A stretch of 24,684 nucleotides of DNA. Origin: a virus. The position numbers were made by a program, and so were the translations under genes. Below the pieces are notes generated by a model that worked only from the letters and a program-made list of their open reading frames with translations, ran no database searches and was not told where the DNA came from. How positions within the stretch are numbered: position 1 is the first letter of the stretch; each line of letters opens with the position of its first letter. The stretch spans positions 1-24,684 of the IMG/VR virus record IMGVR_UViG_3300006805_000152; one strand, given 5' to 3'. This document shows, one piece after another, positions 5,082 to 15,590 of the stretch.

Positions 5082-5297
5082 ATGCAAGAAATAAGAAAAG
5101 TCAGCATAGGAAATGACTATAAAAATTCTATGCACTATGTTCTTGGTCAATCTGTATTAGGTAATTATGTTATACATACTATGCAAAGAACTGAGACTGG
5201 TATTTTAATTTGGATTGAACTAGACAAAGTAGTTCTATGTTGGAAAGAAATAAACTATAATGTTCCAATGGTATTGGAGTTTAACATTAATTTTTAA
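5082..5297 (+). CDS. Conserved small phage protein, function unknown
   Basis: A 71-residue protein with motifs IGNDYKNSMHYVLGQSVLGN, VIHTMQRTETGILIWIE and MVLEFNINF. I recall a similar short protein placed directly before a GroES-like gene in other phages. That arrangement is repeated here. Its TAA stop shares an A with the next ATG (TAATG), which indicates translational coupling to the co-chaperonin. It is predicted beta-rich and soluble. No promoter is visible between the terminator at 5044 and this start, so expression may rely on read-through. Confidence 0.65.
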   Translation: MQEIRKVSIGNDYKNSMHYVLGQSVLGNYVIHTMQRTETGILIWIELDKVVLCWKEINYNVPMVLEFNINF

Positions 5298-5872
5298 TGA
5301 AGTCTCCATTTAGCTTTATACTGTCTCCTATTGGAGAGCAATATAAAAACACGACTAAAGTATCTGGAGTTGATTTAGTAGTAAACACATCTTTAGATTT
5401 AGCTAAATACGTAAATAGAATAGCTCTTGTTATTGAATTGCCTATATATTATAACGGAAGTATTTCTGTTGGTGATGTAGTTGTTGTACATCATAATATA
5501 TTTAGAACGTATCACGACATGAAGGGAAGGCAAACTAAATCACCAGAGTTTTTTAGAGGTGACTTATACATAGTTAATCCAGATAGAATTTATTTATATA
5601 AATCAAAAGGTATATGGAAATCTCATTTGAATTATTGTTTTGTAAAACCAATAGCTAAAATACAAAGTAGTGCAATATACTCTGTTGATAAAGAAGAAAA
5701 GCACATAGGTGTTATTGTATATCCAAGTAAAAAACAAGAAGACAATTTAAACTTAAAAAGTGGCTCCTTTGTTGCGTTCACTAAAAATAGCGAATACGAA
5801 TTTGAAGTAGATGGAGAAAAGATATATAGGATGTATGATAGAGATGTCGTAATAGAATTAAATGAAATATGA
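5297..5872 (+). CDS. Tandem GroES-like co-chaperonin
   Basis: A 191-residue protein that reads as two GroES-type barrels in series. The second (about residues 112-190) aligns well by eye. CFVKPI matches the first strand and HIGVIVYPSKK the GEVLAVG strand. LKSGSFVAFTKNSEYEFEV plus DGEKIYRMYDRDVVIEL match the KVGDxVxF...DGxEYLILRExDILAVI ending. The first half (residues 1-101) repeats the plan: FILSPI, a loop with SGVDLVVNT that resembles the GroES mobile loop, then NRIALVIELP, VGDVVVVHHNIFR and LYIVNPDRIYLY. Phage co-chaperonins such as T4 gp31 adapt host GroEL to fold the major capsid protein, which fits this place in the head operon. It overlaps its upstream gene by 1 bp (TAATG) and its downstream gene by 4 bp (ATGA). 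The stop is the only TGA among the genes here. Confidence 0.7.
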   Translation: MKSPFSFILSPIGEQYKNTTKVSGVDLVVNTSLDLAKYVNRIALVIELPIYYNGSISVGDVVVVHHNIFRTYHDMKGRQTKSPEFFRGDLYIVNPDRIYLYKSKGIWKSHLNYCFVKPIAKIQSSAIYSVDKEEKHIGVIVYPSKKQEDNLNLKSGSFVAFTKNSEYEFEVDGEKIYRMYDRDVVIELNEI

Positions 5873-6165
5873 AATACGATCACAACGAATTAAAAGAAAA
5901 AATTATAGACGCTGCTTACAAGTCTGTAATAGAATTGATTAAGGTTCTAGCTGACGAAATAATATCTGATGATTCTTTAGATGACATATCAGCTGATAAA
6001 ATGAGGAATGCTGTTTTAGCAAAGAAGACAGCTTTAGATGATGCTTTTTATATTTTAACTAAAATAGAGAGCGAGAGAAATATGTTAGAAGGAAATCAAA
6101 AAGAAGAAGTAGATGAAGTCAAATTCCAGTCATTCGCAGAAAAAAGAAGTAAAGGAAGATCTTAG
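5869..6165 (+). CDS. Candidate small terminase subunit
   Basis: A 98-residue acidic, helical protein immediately before the large terminase. Residues 8-68 look like two or three long helices (LKEKIIDAAYKSVIELIKVL, NAVLAKKTALDDAFYILTKI). The C-terminus is basic (KFQSFAEKRSKGRS). Size and position fit a small terminase subunit, and I recall similar short proteins upstream of large terminases in related phages. No DNA-binding motif is clear enough to prove it. It starts inside the ATGA overlap with the co-chaperonin and overlaps the large terminase by 53 bp. Confidence 0.5.
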   Translation: MKYDHNELKEKIIDAAYKSVIELIKVLADEIISDDSLDDISADKMRNAVLAKKTALDDAFYILTKIESERNMLEGNQKEEVDEVKFQSFAEKRSKGRS

Positions 6166-11939: not shown

Positions 11940-13301
11940 ATGGCTCAAGCTGTAAATTTTTCAACTAATGCTATTACTGGTGCTGCTAACTTAACTCCAG
12001 CTCCAGTTAAAGCTACATTATCTACTAACTACGTAGGTACATTTGACTTTTTGTCACATGAATTACCAGATCTTTACGAAAAAGAATTCGAGAGATTTGG
12101 AAATCGTTCTATCGCTTCTTTCTTACGTCTAGTAGGTGCTGAAATGCCTTCTACATCTGACTTAATTAAATGGACAGAACAAGGTCGTCTTCACGTATTT
12201 GGAACTGCAACTAAAGCTAGTGCTTCTACTATTACTTTTACAGCTGCTCACTCTGTACGTTTAAACCAAACTATCGTAATTAATGATGGTGCTATTACTG
12301 TTAAAGCTTTAGTAACTGGTATTGATGTTGATGGTGTTACAATTACAGTTGCTCCTTATAGCGCTGCTGATTTAGCTGCTGTAAGTTCAGTTGCAAGTGC
12401 ATTAAAAGTATTCGTTTATGGTTCTGAATTCAAAAAAGGAACTAACGGAATGTCTGGATCTTTAGAGGCTCAGTCTGACATCTTAGAAACTAACCCAATT
12501 ATCATCAAAGATAAATACGAGGTTAATGGTTCTGATATGGCTCAAGTTGGTTGGATTGAAGTTTCAACTGAAAATGGTGCTTCTGGATACCTTTGGTATT
12601 TGAAATCTGAGCATGAAACTCGTTTACGTTTTGAAGATTACTTAGAAATGTCTATGGTAGAAGGAGAACCTGCTGTTGCTGGATCTGCTGTTGCTTCTGC
12701 TGGATACAAAGGAACTAAAGGTCTTTTCTATGAAATTGCAAATAGAGGAAATGTAGGATCTGGTGCTATTACTGAAAGAGTTGACTTAGAAAATATCATC
12801 AAGGTATTAGATAAAGAAGGAGCTATTCAAGAAAACGTATTGTTTGTAAACAGAAAAACATCTTTCGAGATTGACACTGTATTAGCTGCTCAAAATAACT
12901 TCGGTTCAAGCGGAGCTTCTTACGGATTGTTTGACAACGAACAAGACATGGCTTTAAATCTTGGATTCAAAGGATTTAACTTAGGTTACGATTTTTACAA
13001 AACAGATTGGAAATACCTTAACGATGCAACAACTAGAGGTTCTATCTCTGACATCGATGGTGTATTAGTTCCAGCTGGAACAATGACAATTTACGATCAA
13101 GTTCTTGGTAAAAACGCTAAACGTCCTTTCTTACATACTCGTTACAGAAAATCTGAAACAGAAGATAGAAAATACAAATCTTGGATCGTAGGATCTGCTG
13201 GTGGTGCTTCTAATTCTGAATTGGATGCTATGCAAGTTAACTTCTTATCTGAAAGAGCTTTGGTTGTTTTAGGTGCAAATAACTTCATGTTATTGAAATA
13301 G
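11940..13301 (+). CDS. Major capsid protein
   Basis: A 453-residue protein that forms the head shell. FLSHELPDLYEKEFERFGNR followed by SIASFLRLVGAEMPSTSDLI near residues 38-80 is a conserved capsid N-terminal region I recognise from podovirus and crAss-like capsids. The remainder is HK97-fold-like in length and composition, with a Gly/Ala-rich C-terminal part ending LSERALVVLGANNFMLLK. Codon use differs from neighbours: 8 of 16 Arg codons are CGT, whereas AGA dominates elsewhere, and Tyr, Asn and Phe often use C-ending codons. This fits selection for high expression. A tRNA-Arg(ACG), which reads CGT, lies 0.5 kb downstream. The gene ends with TAG and is followed by a stable terminator. Confidence 0.88.
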   Translation: MAQAVNFSTNAITGAANLTPAPVKATLSTNYVGTFDFLSHELPDLYEKEFERFGNRSIASFLRLVGAEMPSTSDLIKWTEQGRLHVFGTATKASASTITFTAAHSVRLNQTIVINDGAITVKALVTGIDVDGVTITVAPYSAADLAAVSSVASALKVFVYGSEFKKGTNGMSGSLEAQSDILETNPIIIKDKYEVNGSDMAQVGWIEVSTENGASGYLWYLKSEHETRLRFEDYLEMSMVEGEPAVAGSAVASAGYKGTKGLFYEIANRGNVGSGAITERVDLENIIKVLDKEGAIQENVLFVNRKTSFEIDTVLAAQNNFGSSGASYGLFDNEQDMALNLGFKGFNLGYDFYKTDWKYLNDATTRGSISDIDGVLVPAGTMTIYDQVLGKNAKRPFLHTRYRKSETEDRKYKSWIVGSAGGASNSELDAMQVNFLSERALVVLGANNFMLLK

Positions 13302-13327
13302 TTAATAACTTGTTTATTAATATCATT

Positions 13328-13354
13328 AAAGGTAGACTTCGGTTTACCTTTTTT
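13328..13354 (+). terminator. Terminator with UUCG tetraloop after the capsid gene
   Basis: A 10-bp stem (AAAGGTAGAC against GTTTACCTTT, one G-T wobble) is closed by a C(TTCG)G tetraloop, which is unusually stable in RNA. A run of T follows. It ends the scaffold and capsid unit. Confidence 0.85.
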
Positions 13355-13359
13355 GTTTG

Positions 13360-13367
13360 TATATTTG
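13360..13367 (+). promoter_or_regulatory. Possible promoter between two terminators
   Basis: TATATTTG matches the -7 consensus, but it lacks the following GCA and has no good -33 box, because that position is taken up by the capsid terminator. Transcription from it would begin near 13373 and meet the terminator at 13404, giving a transcript of about 60 nt. Confidence 0.35.
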
Positions 13368-13403
13368 TAGTGTACTGTTGGTGCTTTACACTCTCTTTTT
13401 TTT

Positions 13404-13435
13404 AACCACTGAGGCTTTGGCTTTGGTGGTTTTTT
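13404..13435 (+). terminator. Second hairpin terminator behind the capsid gene
   Basis: A 12-bp stem (13404-13415 with 13420-13431, three G-T wobbles) with a TTTG loop is followed by five T. A weaker 6-bp hairpin (AGTGTA against TACACT, 13369-13392) followed by a long T run lies just upstream. The T run of this terminator also supplies the -33 TTTG of the next promoter. Confidence 0.6.
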
Positions 13436-13465
13436 GTTTATTAAAAATAAAGTTGTATATTTGCA
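13433..13465 (+). promoter_or_regulatory. Strong promoter (TTTG-19-TATATTTGCA)
   Basis: The -33 TTTG at 13433-13436 and TATATTTGCA at 13456-13465 are separated by 19 bp, the best consensus match in the window. Transcription should begin at about 13469-13470. It would produce either the short RNA ending at 13595 or, by read-through, the tRNA cluster. Confidence 0.75.
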
Positions 13466-13468
13466 CTA

Positions 13469-13596
13469 TGAAAAATACAAACATCAATATTCTACGTCAC
13501 CCGCAACAAGATATTATCTTGGGTGGAACTAGTGTGTAGTATTGTAAAATAAAACATATTTAAAATTAGAGCCATCCATTTAGGGTGGCTTTTTTA
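13469..13596 (+). ncRNA. Candidate short structured transcript (or leaderless 23-codon peptide)
   Basis: A promoter directly upstream and a terminator at 13570 delimit a transcript of about 125 nt. Inside it, CAAGAT (13507-13512) pairs with ATCTTG (13516-13521). The helix continues outward with CACC (13498-13501) against GGTG (13522-13525) across a 5-nt bulge. The same stretch contains a 23-codon frame from ATG 13468 to TAG 13539 (MKNTNINILRHPQQDIILGG plus three more residues). Its ATG falls at the predicted transcription start, so it would be leaderless. I cannot decide between a small RNA and a peptide, and both are inferences. It matches no RNA family I recognise. Confidence 0.35.
13570..13595 (+). 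terminator. Terminator immediately before the tRNA cluster
   Basis: An 8-bp stem (AGCCATCC against GGGTGGCT, one T-G wobble) with loop ATTTA is followed by TTTTT. It ends 5 bp before the first base of tRNA-Pro. The stem is nearly identical to the terminator at 5044. Confidence 0.8.
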
Positions 13597-13599
13597 TTT

Positions 13600-13672
13600 C
13601 GCGTAGTGACAAAATTGGTTACGTGCCCGCCTTGGAAGCGGGAGATTGCAGGTTCGAGTCCTGCCTATGCGA
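13600..13672 (+). tRNA. tRNA-Pro (TGG)
   Basis: The acceptor stem is CGCGTAG with CTATGCG (one G-T pair). The anticodon stem is CCCGC/GCGGG with loop CTTGGAA, giving anticodon TGG. The T arm is GCAGG, TTCGAGT, CCTGC. C1-G72 and A73 are the tRNA-Pro identity bases. Oddities: position 37 is A where bacterial tRNA-Pro normally has G, and the D stem has only two good pairs. CCA is not encoded. Confidence 0.75.
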
Positions 13673-13677
13673 CAAAA

Positions 13678-13748
13678 TACAATATGATGTAATGGTAGCA
13701 TAACAGTTTTTGACACTGTCTGTCCAAGTTCGAGTCTTGGTATTGTAA
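13678..13748 (+). tRNA. tRNA-Gln (TTG)
   Basis: A perfect 7-bp acceptor (TACAATA with TATTGTA) encloses anticodon stem ACAGT/ACTGT with loop TTTTGAC, anticodon TTG. The T arm is CCAAG, TTCGAGT, CTTGG. The U1-A72 end is typical for tRNA-Gln. CCA is not encoded. Confidence 0.88.
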
Positions 13749-13753
13749 CAAAT

Positions 13754-13826
13754 GGTGGTATTCGACTAACGGTTAAGTCGTCAGATTGTGTCTCTGAAAA
13801 TGCGAGTTCGACTCTCGTGTATCACC
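13754..13826 (+). tRNA. tRNA-His (GTG)
   Basis: Anticodon stem TCAGA/TCTGA has loop TTGTGTC, anticodon GTG. The D stem GACT/AGTC is perfect. A G at position -1 (13754) faces C73 (13826), the hallmark of tRNA-His. The acceptor pairs GTGGTAT with GTATCAC (two G-T pairs). Confidence 0.88.
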
Positions 13827-13831
13827 CAAAT

Positions 13832-13904
13832 TTCAATATAGTTTAATTGGATAAAACAATAGGCTACGAACCTATAGATAGGAGTTCAAGTCTTCTTATT
13901 GAAA
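13832..13904 (+). tRNA. tRNA-Arg (ACG)
   Basis: A perfect acceptor (TTCAATA with TATTGAA), D stem GTTT/AAAC and anticodon stem ATAGG/CCTAT with loop CTACGAA give anticodon ACG, which becomes ICG after deamination and reads CGT. The T arm is AGGAG/CTTCT, with one G-T pair. The discriminator is A. It matches the CGT-rich capsid gene upstream. Confidence 0.88.
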
Positions 13905-13909
13905 CAAAA

Positions 13910-13991
13910 ACCAAAGTGACGTAAAAACGAATTGGAAGAGTGCCTAGTCTTAGAAACTAGAGTTTTATGGGTTCGAGTCCCATCTTTGGTA
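13910..13991 (+). tRNA. tRNA-Leu (TAG), unusual architecture
   Basis: The acceptor (ACCAAAG with CTTTGGT), anticodon stem (CTAGT/ACTAG, loop CTTAGAA, anticodon TAG) and T arm (ATGGG, TTCGAGT, CCCAT) are all perfect, with A73. It lacks the long variable arm of a normal tRNA-Leu: only AGTTTT lies between the anticodon and T stems. Instead the segment between acceptor and anticodon stem is 27 nt rather than about 19. The extra bases come before the usual GAATTGG D loop and leave a weak D stem. The insertion can pair AAAAC (13924-13928) with GTTTT (13962-13966). Confidence 0.75.
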
Positions 13992-14010
13992 CTTAAATAT
14001 CTTGTTAAAT

Positions 14011-14028
14011 TAATTTTGTAATTTTGCT
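14011..14028 (+). promoter_or_regulatory. Tandem -7 promoter elements
   Basis: TAATTTTG occurs twice back to back (14011-14018 and 14019-14026), the second followed by C. A TTTG inside the tRNA-Leu acceptor stem (13985-13988) is 22 bp from the first copy and could be its -33 box. Transcription would start near 14025-14033, just before the gene at 14053. Confidence 0.65.
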
Positions 14029-14052
14029 TTTTTAATTTAATATAATATAATC

Positions 14053-14826
14053 ATGGCAAGACCAGTAGCAAAGAAGGAAGTCCCTTCTAAAGAATTTGAA
14101 TTTAAAGATAGAATTTATCTTTTAAAAGGTAACGCAACACCAATTACTTATATGTTGCGTTCTAAACACTCACAAAGCAAACCACTTCTTTATTTTGATT
14201 TAGAGACAAGAAGCAATAAAGCTTTAAGATGGAGCGATAACCAGTCATCTCCATTTGTTGATGAACAAGATGGTTATGCTATCTCAACTCCTATTATTTT
14301 TGAGAATGGTGTTTTACAAGTAAAAAAAGAACAAGTAGAGTTACAAAGATTTTTATCTGTTTATCATCCAGACAACCAGTCTATATACGTTGAGTTTGAT
14401 GCAGAAGAAAAAGCAGCTGAAGAGTATGATGAATTAACATTTAAACTAGAGGCTCAGATAGCTGTTAAAGAAATGCCAATTGAAGACTTAGAGGCAATAG
14501 CAAGAGTTTTACTTAAAAGTAAAGTTGAGACGATGACATCTTCTGAATTAAGAAGAGACATGCTGATTTATGCTGGTAGAAATCCAAAGGAGTTTAATTC
14601 TTTAATGAATGATGATTCTGTTAAATTTAGAAACATAGCTATTAGAGCAGTACAGCTAGATATTATTAGATTAAGTACAGATGGACGTACTGTAAATTGG
14701 GGAGGAAAAGATGGTGGAAGAATTATTACTATCCCATTTGGTGAGAATGCTTATTCTGCATTAGCGTCATTTTTCTTAACTGATGAAGGAATGGATGTAT
14801 TGTCTGATATTTCAAACAAGTTGTAG
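14053..14826 (+). CDS. Conserved phage structural-module protein, function unknown
   Basis: A 257-residue soluble protein. The N-terminal half looks beta-rich (KEFEFKDRIYLLKGNATPIT, KPLLYFDLETRSNKALRWSD, PIIFENGVLQVKKEQVELQR). It contains FLSVYHP, a motif I recall in a family common near head genes in Bacteroidota and marine phages. The C-terminal half is helical (MPIEDLEAIARVLLKSKVET, SELRRDMLIYAGRNPKEFN). It is transcribed as its own unit, with tandem -7 elements before and a GAAA-loop terminator after. That implies a dose of its own, as for a decoration, head-completion or assembly protein. No enzyme motif is visible. Confidence 0.75.
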   Translation: MARPVAKKEVPSKEFEFKDRIYLLKGNATPITYMLRSKHSQSKPLLYFDLETRSNKALRWSDNQSSPFVDEQDGYAISTPIIFENGVLQVKKEQVELQRFLSVYHPDNQSIYVEFDAEEKAAEEYDELTFKLEAQIAVKEMPIEDLEAIARVLLKSKVETMTSSELRRDMLIYAGRNPKEFNSLMNDDSVKFRNIAIRAVQLDIIRLSTDGRTVNWGGKDGGRIITIPFGENAYSALASFFLTDEGMDVLSDISNKL

Positions 14827-14852
14827 TGTTTTGTACATAATAACAATCAATT

Positions 14853-14881
14853 GCACTCTCGAAAGGGGGTGCTTTTTTTTT
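14853..14881 (+). terminator. Terminator with GAAA tetraloop
   Basis: An 8-bp stem (GCACTCTC with GGGGGTGC, two T-G wobbles) with a GAAA tetraloop is followed by nine T. It ends the single-gene unit that starts at 14053. The next promoter begins 3 bp later. Confidence 0.85.
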
Positions 14882-14883
14882 AT

Positions 14884-14893
14884 TAACTTTGCA
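14884..14893 (+). promoter_or_regulatory. Promoter (-7 TAACTTTGCA)
   Basis: TAACTTTGCA lies 16 bp before the ATG at 14910 and repeats exactly the -7 element of the scaffold promoter. No TTG is found at the -33 position, which falls in the preceding terminator. It probably drives the ring, muzzle and accessory genes, since I see no other promoter or terminator up to 23286. Confidence 0.7.
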
Positions 14894-14909
14894 CAAAATA
14901 GATATTATT

Positions 14910-15590
14910 ATGATTAATGACGTAAGAAACATGGTTGACTTTGTGTTGAATAAAGAAAGCCGTGGATACATAACTCCATTACAGTTTAACACTTTTGCTA
15001 AACAAGCTCAACAGGAGGTAGTAGATGATTATTTTTATGATTACAACAAGAGTCTAGTTGGTAAGAACTCAAGAACAAATTACAAAGAGATAATCAAAAA
15101 AGCAAAGGAAGGAATGGATGTATTTGCAGTTCCTCCAACATCTCTTGTTTTTGATACAGTAACTGATTTATTTAAAGCTCCATCTGATTTATATACAGCT
15201 ATAACATTGATGTATAATGATAAAGAAATTGAGGAGATACCAAGGGATAAATTAAGTTATTTTTTAACAAACACTTTAGTTGGTCCTAGTGTTTTTTATC
15301 CAGGATATATAAAATACAATAATAATTATAAAGTATACCCAGAAACAATAGAAACAAATGTTAAGTTAATGTACTTTAGAAATCCTAAAGACCCTAACTG
15401 GACATATGAAATGGTAGGAGGTAATCCATTATTCAATCAATCTAAACAAGGATTCCAAGATTTTGAAGTTGGTTTTGAAGATAAACTTAAACTAATTGTA
15501 AAAATACTAAAGTACTCTGGATTAAATATAAGAGAGGCTGATATTGTTGGAGCAGCTATAGCACTTGAAGACAAAGAAAACTTAAAATAA
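14910..15590 (+). CDS. Head-tail ring/connector-type structural protein
   Basis: A 226-residue protein starting at ATG 14910. A frame opening at TTG 14889 would run across the promoter. MINDVRNMVDFVLNKESRGY followed by ITPLQFNTFAKQAQQEVVDD is a conserved opening I recognise from structural proteins encoded just before the tail-adaptor gene in crAss-like and related podoviruses. There they form one of the rings between portal and muzzle. The middle is beta-rich (APSDLYTAITLMYNDKEIEE, NVKLMYFRNPKDPNWTYEM). The C-terminus is helical and ends before the next gene after 13 bp. Ring assignment is by family resemblance and order. Confidence 0.65.
   Translation: MINDVRNMVDFVLNKESRGYITPLQFNTFAKQAQQEVVDDYFYDYNKSLVGKNSRTNYKEIIKKAKEGMDVFAVPPTSLVFDTVTDLFKAPSDLYTAITLMYNDKEIEEIPRDKLSYFLTNTLVGPSVFYPGYIKYNNNYKVYPETIETNVKLMYFRNPKDPNWTYEMVGGNPLFNQSKQGFQDFEVGFEDKLKLIVKILKYSGLNIREADIVGAAIALEDKENLK

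Follow-up and report, generated by a model that had tools for sequence, protein, structure and literature searches.

A probable ribosome-mediated transcription attenuator in front of a phage tRNA operon

Behind the major capsid gene of a virus whose host group is the Bacteroidota bacteria, the sequence very probably encodes a trp-type ribosome-mediated transcription attenuator of a phage tRNA operon, which would sense the operon's own tRNA supply. The virus probably makes the five tRNAs of this operon only when ribosomes run short of them. The window, i.e. the whole stretch of DNA analyzed, comprises the 24,684 bases of the virus record. Support comes from the match of leader codons to the tRNA genes and its co-variation over operon compositions, the frame specificity of this match, the conserved promoter-ORF-terminator-tRNA layout and exclusive pairings in the RNA. 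The five tRNA genes from 13600 onwards are the key to the region and were absent from the initial annotation, which had described an array of promoters and terminators bracketing one or two possible short RNAs or a leaderless peptide. The 125-nt unit is probably no independent small RNA but the leader of the tRNA operon, and the 125-nt RNA would arise when transcription of the operon stops at the terminator of the leader.

Organization of the region behind the capsid gene

The capsid gene, the junction behind it and the tRNA operon contain the following features:

11940..13301, + strand: major capsid protein gene; tblastn relatives annotated as virion structural protein or structural protein, 50-57% identical
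13328..13356, + strand: predicted terminator of the capsid transcript, UUCG loop and T run; kept in L098, L099 and L104
13360..13436, + strand: -7 box TATATTTG (13360-13367), then the terminator 13404-13431
13369-13392, + strand: hairpin (folding)
13404-13431, + strand: predicted terminator (folding, conservation)
13433..13463, + strand: predicted operon promoter, TTTG (13433-13436), 19-nt spacer, TATATTTG (13456-13463), a Bacteroidota -7 box
13468..13539, + strand: leaderless leader-peptide ORF MKNTNINILRHPQQDIILGGTSV, 23 codons (reading frame, codon tests)
13492..13509, + strand: putative regulatory core CTA CGT CAC CCG CAA CAA = Leu Arg His Pro Gln Gln, cognate to the five operon tRNAs
13568..13597, + strand: predicted attenuator terminator (3:4) with T run, directly before tRNA-Pro (folding, terminator search)
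13600..13673, + strand: tRNA-Pro (TGG) (tRNA search)
13678..13749, + strand: tRNA-Gln (TTG) (tRNA search)
13755..13827, + strand: tRNA-His (GTG) (tRNA search)
13832..13905, + strand: tRNA-Arg (ACG) (tRNA search)
13919..13992, + strand: tRNA-Leu (TAG) (aragorn at 95% threshold; missed by default settings)
14011..14026, + strand: -7 boxes of the predicted promoter for ORF 14053-14826, the structural gene that follows; L002 shows this arrangement in front of its next gene, too

All promoter, hairpin and terminator elements which the initial annotation placed at 13302-13600 were located there and were more stable than shuffled sequences; the UUCG-loop terminator was placed at 13328-13351 and the last terminator at 13568-13592. 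The folding z-scores were -3.9 (13304-13356), -5.1 (13369-13436) and -4.2 (13469-13597), with no shuffle equally stable, and four terminator-like sites were found within 12000-15000, where shuffles gave 1.4 ± 1.1. By itself, the -7 octamer shows no enrichment in the window (41 occurrences vs 38.6 expected). The -7 box of the promoter 13433-13463 and its surroundings are invariant among relatives. The consensus TAnnTTTG is the -7 box of the primary sigma factor of Flavobacterium psychrophilum, an organism in which 5.5% of the mRNAs are leaderless and which offers clues to leader-peptide attenuation upstream of amino-acid operons (PMC9723704). The terminator stem of the attenuator ends 8 nt before tRNA-Pro and its T run 3 nt before. 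The tRNA-Leu gene coincides with a sub-threshold Rfam tRNA match (13925-13983, 23.4 bits), and the same gene is present in L098-L105.

A second, approximately 60-nt unit (13360-13436) had been proposed as a further possible short RNA. Its -7 box and terminator are kept in relatives and its hairpin is not: in the junction alignment, conservation of the 13369 hairpin was absent in L098, L099 and L104. The terminator at 13404 is kept in these three records, with base changes that preserve the pairing (CCACT/AGTGG vs CCGCT/AGCGG). Most simply, the unit may be read as an insulating promoter/terminator pair. The close pairing of a terminator T run with a -7 box occurs in the window at 13352-13367 and 14872-14891; behind the capsid genes of L003, L067, L075, L083 and L084, the -7 box likewise lies within a few nt of the terminator T run, as if terminator and next promoter formed one composite element.

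The relatives of the capsid protein found by tblastn belong to flavobacterial phages. In 80 relatives on viral contigs, the junction behind the capsid gene contains one terminator and no tRNA genes; nearly all capsid relatives have a terminator at the place that 13328-13356 takes in the window. The leader/tRNA block is also found in L098-L101 and L103-L105, whose capsid genes are 94-100% identical. Two of the 80 relatives carry an endonuclease-like insert at the junction, an ORF resembling an HNH endonuclease in L002 (6474-7289) and one resembling a GIY-YIG endonuclease in L066. The capsid-downstream junction is, to judge from these sequences, an insertion hot spot where extra genes land; given the inserts found there (tRNA block, HNH, GIY-YIG), the leader and the tRNA block would be cargo. 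A function of the leader unit as a late-gene control element was ruled out, since the 80 capsid relatives have a single terminator and neither leader nor tRNAs.

The leader ORF and its codon core in the window and in other phages

The ATG of the leader ORF lies at 13468-13470, a corrected position, 4 nt behind the -7 box, and the predicted transcript start is at the ATG or within 1-3 nt of it. The ORF reads MKNTNINI-LRHPQQ-DIILGGTSV and is located between the promoter 13433-13463 and the terminator 13568-13597, a layout shared by about 20 leaders. Its core offers one or two codons per downstream tRNA, with all five covered and none for other tRNAs, a match with p about 3e-5 against phage codon usage; the core score is 6 in the ATG frame and 1-2 in the other frames. 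The proposal of a leaderless 23-codon ORF on a short transcript that has a promoter and a terminator to itself was borne out, the ORF being conserved and under selection. A functional 23-residue peptide was dropped as a candidate because the amino-acid sequence is free to vary in relatives, only the composition being kept and tracking the tRNA genes.

A DNA similarity search with 13352-13600 in phages matched mainly the promoter and led to the phages Panino and Calle. Maribacter phage Panino and the Cellulophaga phages contain promoter, short ORF, terminator and tRNA-Pro in the same layout. The leader of Panino, MKT-QRLHQELEQP-..., precedes an operon for Pro Glu Gln His Leu Leu Arg. Calle_1 has three leaders: MNAR-LLHQEPLEQLRLP-... 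before the same tRNAs as in Panino, MKTNMT-YNNFSWYSNCSFSSYN-... upstream of Tyr Ser Ser Asn Trp Phe Cys, and MKTIMN-IATDIRTKGVK-... upstream of Ala Lys Ile Gly Met Asp Thr Val Arg Ile. The Ala gene of this last block was identified by eye, and Panino has a counterpart of it. Jointly, these three leaders cover all 20 amino acids.

Further leaders were retrieved with promoter+ATG scans, which are blind to peptide and tRNA, and with an added tRNA-Pro scan. The blind scans yielded L116 (core YSSLSLLYS; operon Leu Leu Ser Ser Tyr, with a Ser-TGA gene at about 2417-2505 that the programs miss and that was read by eye) and L207 (core MLLCHISMSLSHSMS; operon Cys Met His Ser Leu Leu Ser). In L269, all 14 codons of the core TFTQRPEQHTPCFT are cognate to a new composition, Glu Pro Cys Phe Thr Arg Gln His. 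The records L116, L207 and L269 (49-107 kb) contain no detectable relative of the capsid protein of the window, and therefore the arrangement extends beyond one phage family. Overall, seven operon compositions and about 20 distinct leaders were found in phages both related and unrelated, and where the tRNA block differs, so does the leader.

This co-variation extends to the presence of single tRNAs and to isoacceptors. Where the Glu tRNA is missing from the operon, the Glu codon is missing from the core (window, L099, L102). Operons with only Leu-TAG have only CTN Leu codons in the core, those with Leu-TAG and Leu-TAA have both CTN and TTA, and the Leu-CAA/TAA operon of L207 is preceded by TTG/TTA as the only Leu codons. 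Arg-TCT goes with AGA and Arg-ACG with CGN, and the operon with Ile-GAT and Ile-TAT has ATT and ATA in its core.

Among 16 leaders, nearly every operon tRNA has a codon in the core. The best cognate run had p<=5e-5 against phage codon usage in 14 of these leaders and 2e-4 and 2.4e-3 in the other two, several leaders being of common descent, so that these are not 16 independent tests. In the assignment of leader types to operon types, the correct pairing ranked first of 720 permutations. Over all pattern scans except the last two, core scores of 6-16 were obtained for all 19 distinct short ORFs that have a tRNA less than 700 nt downstream, whereas 17 short ORFs without a tRNA did not exceed 4, or 6 with the largest codon set. 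By frame, core scores were 6-16 in the ATG frame, 1-4 in the other frames and 2-6 in antisense. A later, looser scan served as an out-of-sample set: of its 35 short ORFs, those of L265, L269 and L293 lay within 400 nt of tRNAs, and all three leaders, found after the hypothesis had been formed, fit. Scans with the promoter variants TCGTATATTTG and TTGTATCTTTG returned 18 short ORFs, none near tRNAs. The ORF MNFWHSNCRNCCPYSCY of L526 was ruled out as a leader candidate, there being no tRNA downstream.

Several records deviate from the common pattern. The near-identical records L098, L101 and L103, of the same phage group, kept promoter, terminator and five tRNAs and lost the ORF, which is replaced by an unrelated sequence of approximately 75 nt with the palindrome TTTCCCTAGGGAAA (7180-7282 in L098); this sequence may be the remnant of a leader or another kind of control element. 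L112 and L230 have a type-B leader followed by only one or two recognizable tRNAs and then by reverse-strand genes. An ORF resembling an HNH endonuclease lies between terminator and first tRNA in L118, and in L102 the leader lacks an Arg codon although the operon has a tRNA-Arg. Many phage tRNA arrays, several of them from gut phages, had no such leader (crAss001, LoVEphage, bajarodcaudo virus and cr131_1).

In two database entries, a hypothetical protein is annotated over the leader ORF: gp070 of phi38:1 (NC_021796.1, 37894-38076), with a start codon probably too far upstream, and CDS0063 of PP540027.1 (25306-25401), whose frame covers the leader ORF. In three phages (L106, reverse complement, 5164-5310; L093, 1687-1836; L232, reverse complement, 5754-5888), a conserved small ORF of 44-49 aa resembling a membrane protein (MITFLVGVLAGAAGFAL...) lies in front of the third tRNA block, the one that begins with Ala. 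Between two operon tRNAs of L116, the segment 2220-2400 gave a weak match to archaeal RNase P RNA (19.9 bits vs cut-off 84) and is possibly a phage-encoded RNase P-like RNA.

Alternative pairings and proposed control of the operon

The following segments of the leader RNA were predicted to pair:

13485..13544, + strand: hairpin 1:2, core region paired with the stretch that precedes the stop codon; predicted in the absence of a ribosome (folding)
13520..13533, + strand: region 2, antiterminator 5' strand (TTGGGTG..CTAGT) (duplex energy, stalled-state fold)
13565..13578, + strand: region 3, antiterminator 3' strand (ATTAG..CCATCCA); overlaps the 5' arm of the terminator

A bulged hairpin claimed at 13498-13525 is present (13498-13526) but only as part of the longer structure 13485-13544. 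Behind every leader lies a strong terminator, and region 2, defined as the segment between core and stop codon or just past the stop, is an alternative pairing partner for the 5' arm of this terminator. In the window, the 2:3 duplex has -17.3 kcal/mol compared to -9.2 with shuffled region 2 (p=0.006). The leaders' own 2:3 duplexes averaged -15.9 kcal/mol versus -10.9 ± 0.7 for permuted partners (P=5e-5). The 2:3 sequences differ among leaders (UUGGGUG:CAUCCA and CUAGU:AUUAG in the window, GCUUGAGC:GCUCAAGC in L207) and yet still pair, which is compensatory evidence for the pairing.

Ensemble tests of the antiterminator took in 18-20 leaders. The 5' arm of the terminator was sequestered to 0.77 with the ribosome in the core versus 0.11 with the ribosome at the stop codon (P=4e-6, 20 leaders), and the stalled state exceeded that with shuffled spacers (0.77 vs 0.49, Wilcoxon P=1e-6). 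For the window alone this test gave p=0.13, and the 2:3 pairing is weak in L108, L112 and L230. According to the model, the pairings of terminator and antiterminator are mutually exclusive. Region 2 of the window (13520-13533) corresponds to codons 18-22 of 23 and therefore would be covered once a ribosome has reached the stop codon. A stalled ribosome would instead cover region 1 (13498-13512), which extends from inside the core codons to just beyond them.

From this architecture we infer transcription start, translation, stalling, read-through and the physiological trigger as follows. RNA polymerase would start at approximately 13467-13470, placing the 5' end of the mRNA at or a few nt from the leader ATG, and a ribosome would trail the polymerase through Leu CUA, Arg CGU, His CAC, Pro CCG, Gln CAA and CAA. 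With all five tRNAs plentiful, it would reach the stop codon and cover region 2, the terminator 13568-13597 would form, and an RNA of about 125 nt would be released. With any one of the sensed tRNAs scarce, the ribosome would stall in the core and cover region 1; region 2 would then pair with region 3 as antiterminator, and the polymerase would continue into tRNA-Pro-Gln-His-Arg-Leu. Scarcity might be caused by cleavage by host anticodon nucleases, by loss upon host shut-off or by the codon demand of the phage. The new tRNAs would restore decoding of the leader and switch the operon off, the product being the sensed ligand. Phage tRNAs are described to counter tRNA-targeting defences (PMC10264068, PMC11555353).

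An independent small RNA, as suggested in the initial annotation, would require that the 125-nt transcript acts in trans and that ORF and tRNAs are chance neighbours. The transcript has its own promoter and terminator and a stable fold (z=-4.2), but its sequence and internal stem vary between operon types, and the conserved feature is the in-frame codon composition that tracks the downstream tRNAs. The terminator lies directly before the first tRNA in complete cases, the RNA is absent in L098 at the same promoter, and other operon types share the layout and not the sequence. We regard this reading as very improbable; the 125-nt unit is better described as the attenuator leader of the adjoining downstream tRNA operon. 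A search for a small-RNA family in Rfam, at gathering and relaxed thresholds, returned only tRNAs and sub-threshold chance matches.

An untranslated leader of the T-box or multi-specifier type, in which uncharged tRNAs pair with codon-like triplets and stabilize an antiterminator, would equally place such triplets in a 5' leader upstream of a terminator, and tRNA-binding leaders with antitermination are an established principle in other bacteria. Against it, Rfam contained no T-box or other riboswitch for this region, the T-box covariance model having no match at gathering or relaxed thresholds. Moreover, the triplets form an unbroken series in the frame of the ATG that lies 4 nt behind the -7 box, this frame has a stop codon before region 3, and a single RNA would need to hold five to ten different tRNAs; we give this explanation hardly any weight. 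It is unlikely, too, that the control is ribosome-mediated with a leaky terminator and that the leader, instead of switching the operon, chiefly adjusts the basal level of tRNA synthesis or acts on processing. Folded without ribosome, the terminator arm is partly sequestered (61% on average), so that the default state of the model is not clear-cut. On the other hand, tRNA genes need no translation, and a strong terminator right before them is an obvious control point. A trp-type switch governed by the operon's own tRNAs is the preferred interpretation.

Significance and comparison with known attenuators

No precedent for tRNA genes under leader-peptide attenuation was found in the open-licence PMC literature, which is not proof of novelty. 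The known principle of trp-type attenuation would here be applied to a gene class for which no precedent was found, and tRNA genes would be an added class of targets for it. The reason why phages carry tRNA genes has been under debate for decades. With tRNA expression tied to the decoding of the same codons, the phage would monitor the supply of those tRNAs, which favours the replacement of lost or limiting tRNAs over a fixed supplement for codon usage. It seems somewhat likely that phages split their tRNA genes into operons, each with a leader listing its own codons, and that every operon senses and replaces one part of the tRNA pool and limits its own expression; the three leaders of Callevirus (Cellulophaga phages) cover all 20 amino acids. 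If so, these three leaders would enable the phage to register the tRNAs lost to a host defence and to replace those alone. Cultured phages allow a direct test of the question (phi38:1 and Calle of Cellulophaga, Panino of Maribacter), and the leaders may be usable in reporters as natural multi-codon tRNA sensors.

The putative attenuator shares with the trp/his type the short ORF with a run of regulatory codons, the hairpins 1:2, 2:3 and 3:4, the terminator before the structural genes and stalling as input; the geometry of the ribosome-covered regions in the window is that of the trp attenuator. In contrast to the trp/his type, the controlled genes are tRNA genes and not enzymes, so that the operon product is the decoding tRNA itself, and each leader is phage-borne, starts leaderless and addresses five to ten tRNA species. 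The theory of trp/his-type attenuation is treated in PMC1183508.

Codons for several amino acids in one leader are also a property of the multivalent attenuators of ilvGMEDA, thrABC and C. glutamicum ilvBNC. These address two to three amino acids of one pathway, whereas the set in the phage leaders equals that of the anticodons encoded in the tRNA genes behind them and varies along with these genes.

The pheST leader (Rfam RF01859) likewise attenuates a translation-supply operon through cognate amino-acid codons. It controls a synthetase, concerns one amino acid and senses charging, whereas the phage leader would control tRNA genes and sense tRNA supply. The similarity of the two is weak and limited to the terminator: the Rfam amino-acid leaders Phe_leader (23.5 bits vs cut-off 55) and Trp_leader (15.9 vs 41) matched sub-threshold, essentially over the terminator, with tRNAs as the genes downstream.

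T-box riboswitches have in common with the phage leaders a tRNA-responsive antitermination before translation genes; they bind tRNA directly and have no leader peptide, and the phage leader has no T-box match. Finally, the phage tRNA arrays that counter host defences (PMC10264068, PMC11555353) carry the same cargo and offer a plausible physiological reason for the proposed control. Both studies concern the sequence and supply of the tRNAs, and PMC10264068 makes no mention of leader, promoter, terminator or attenuation.
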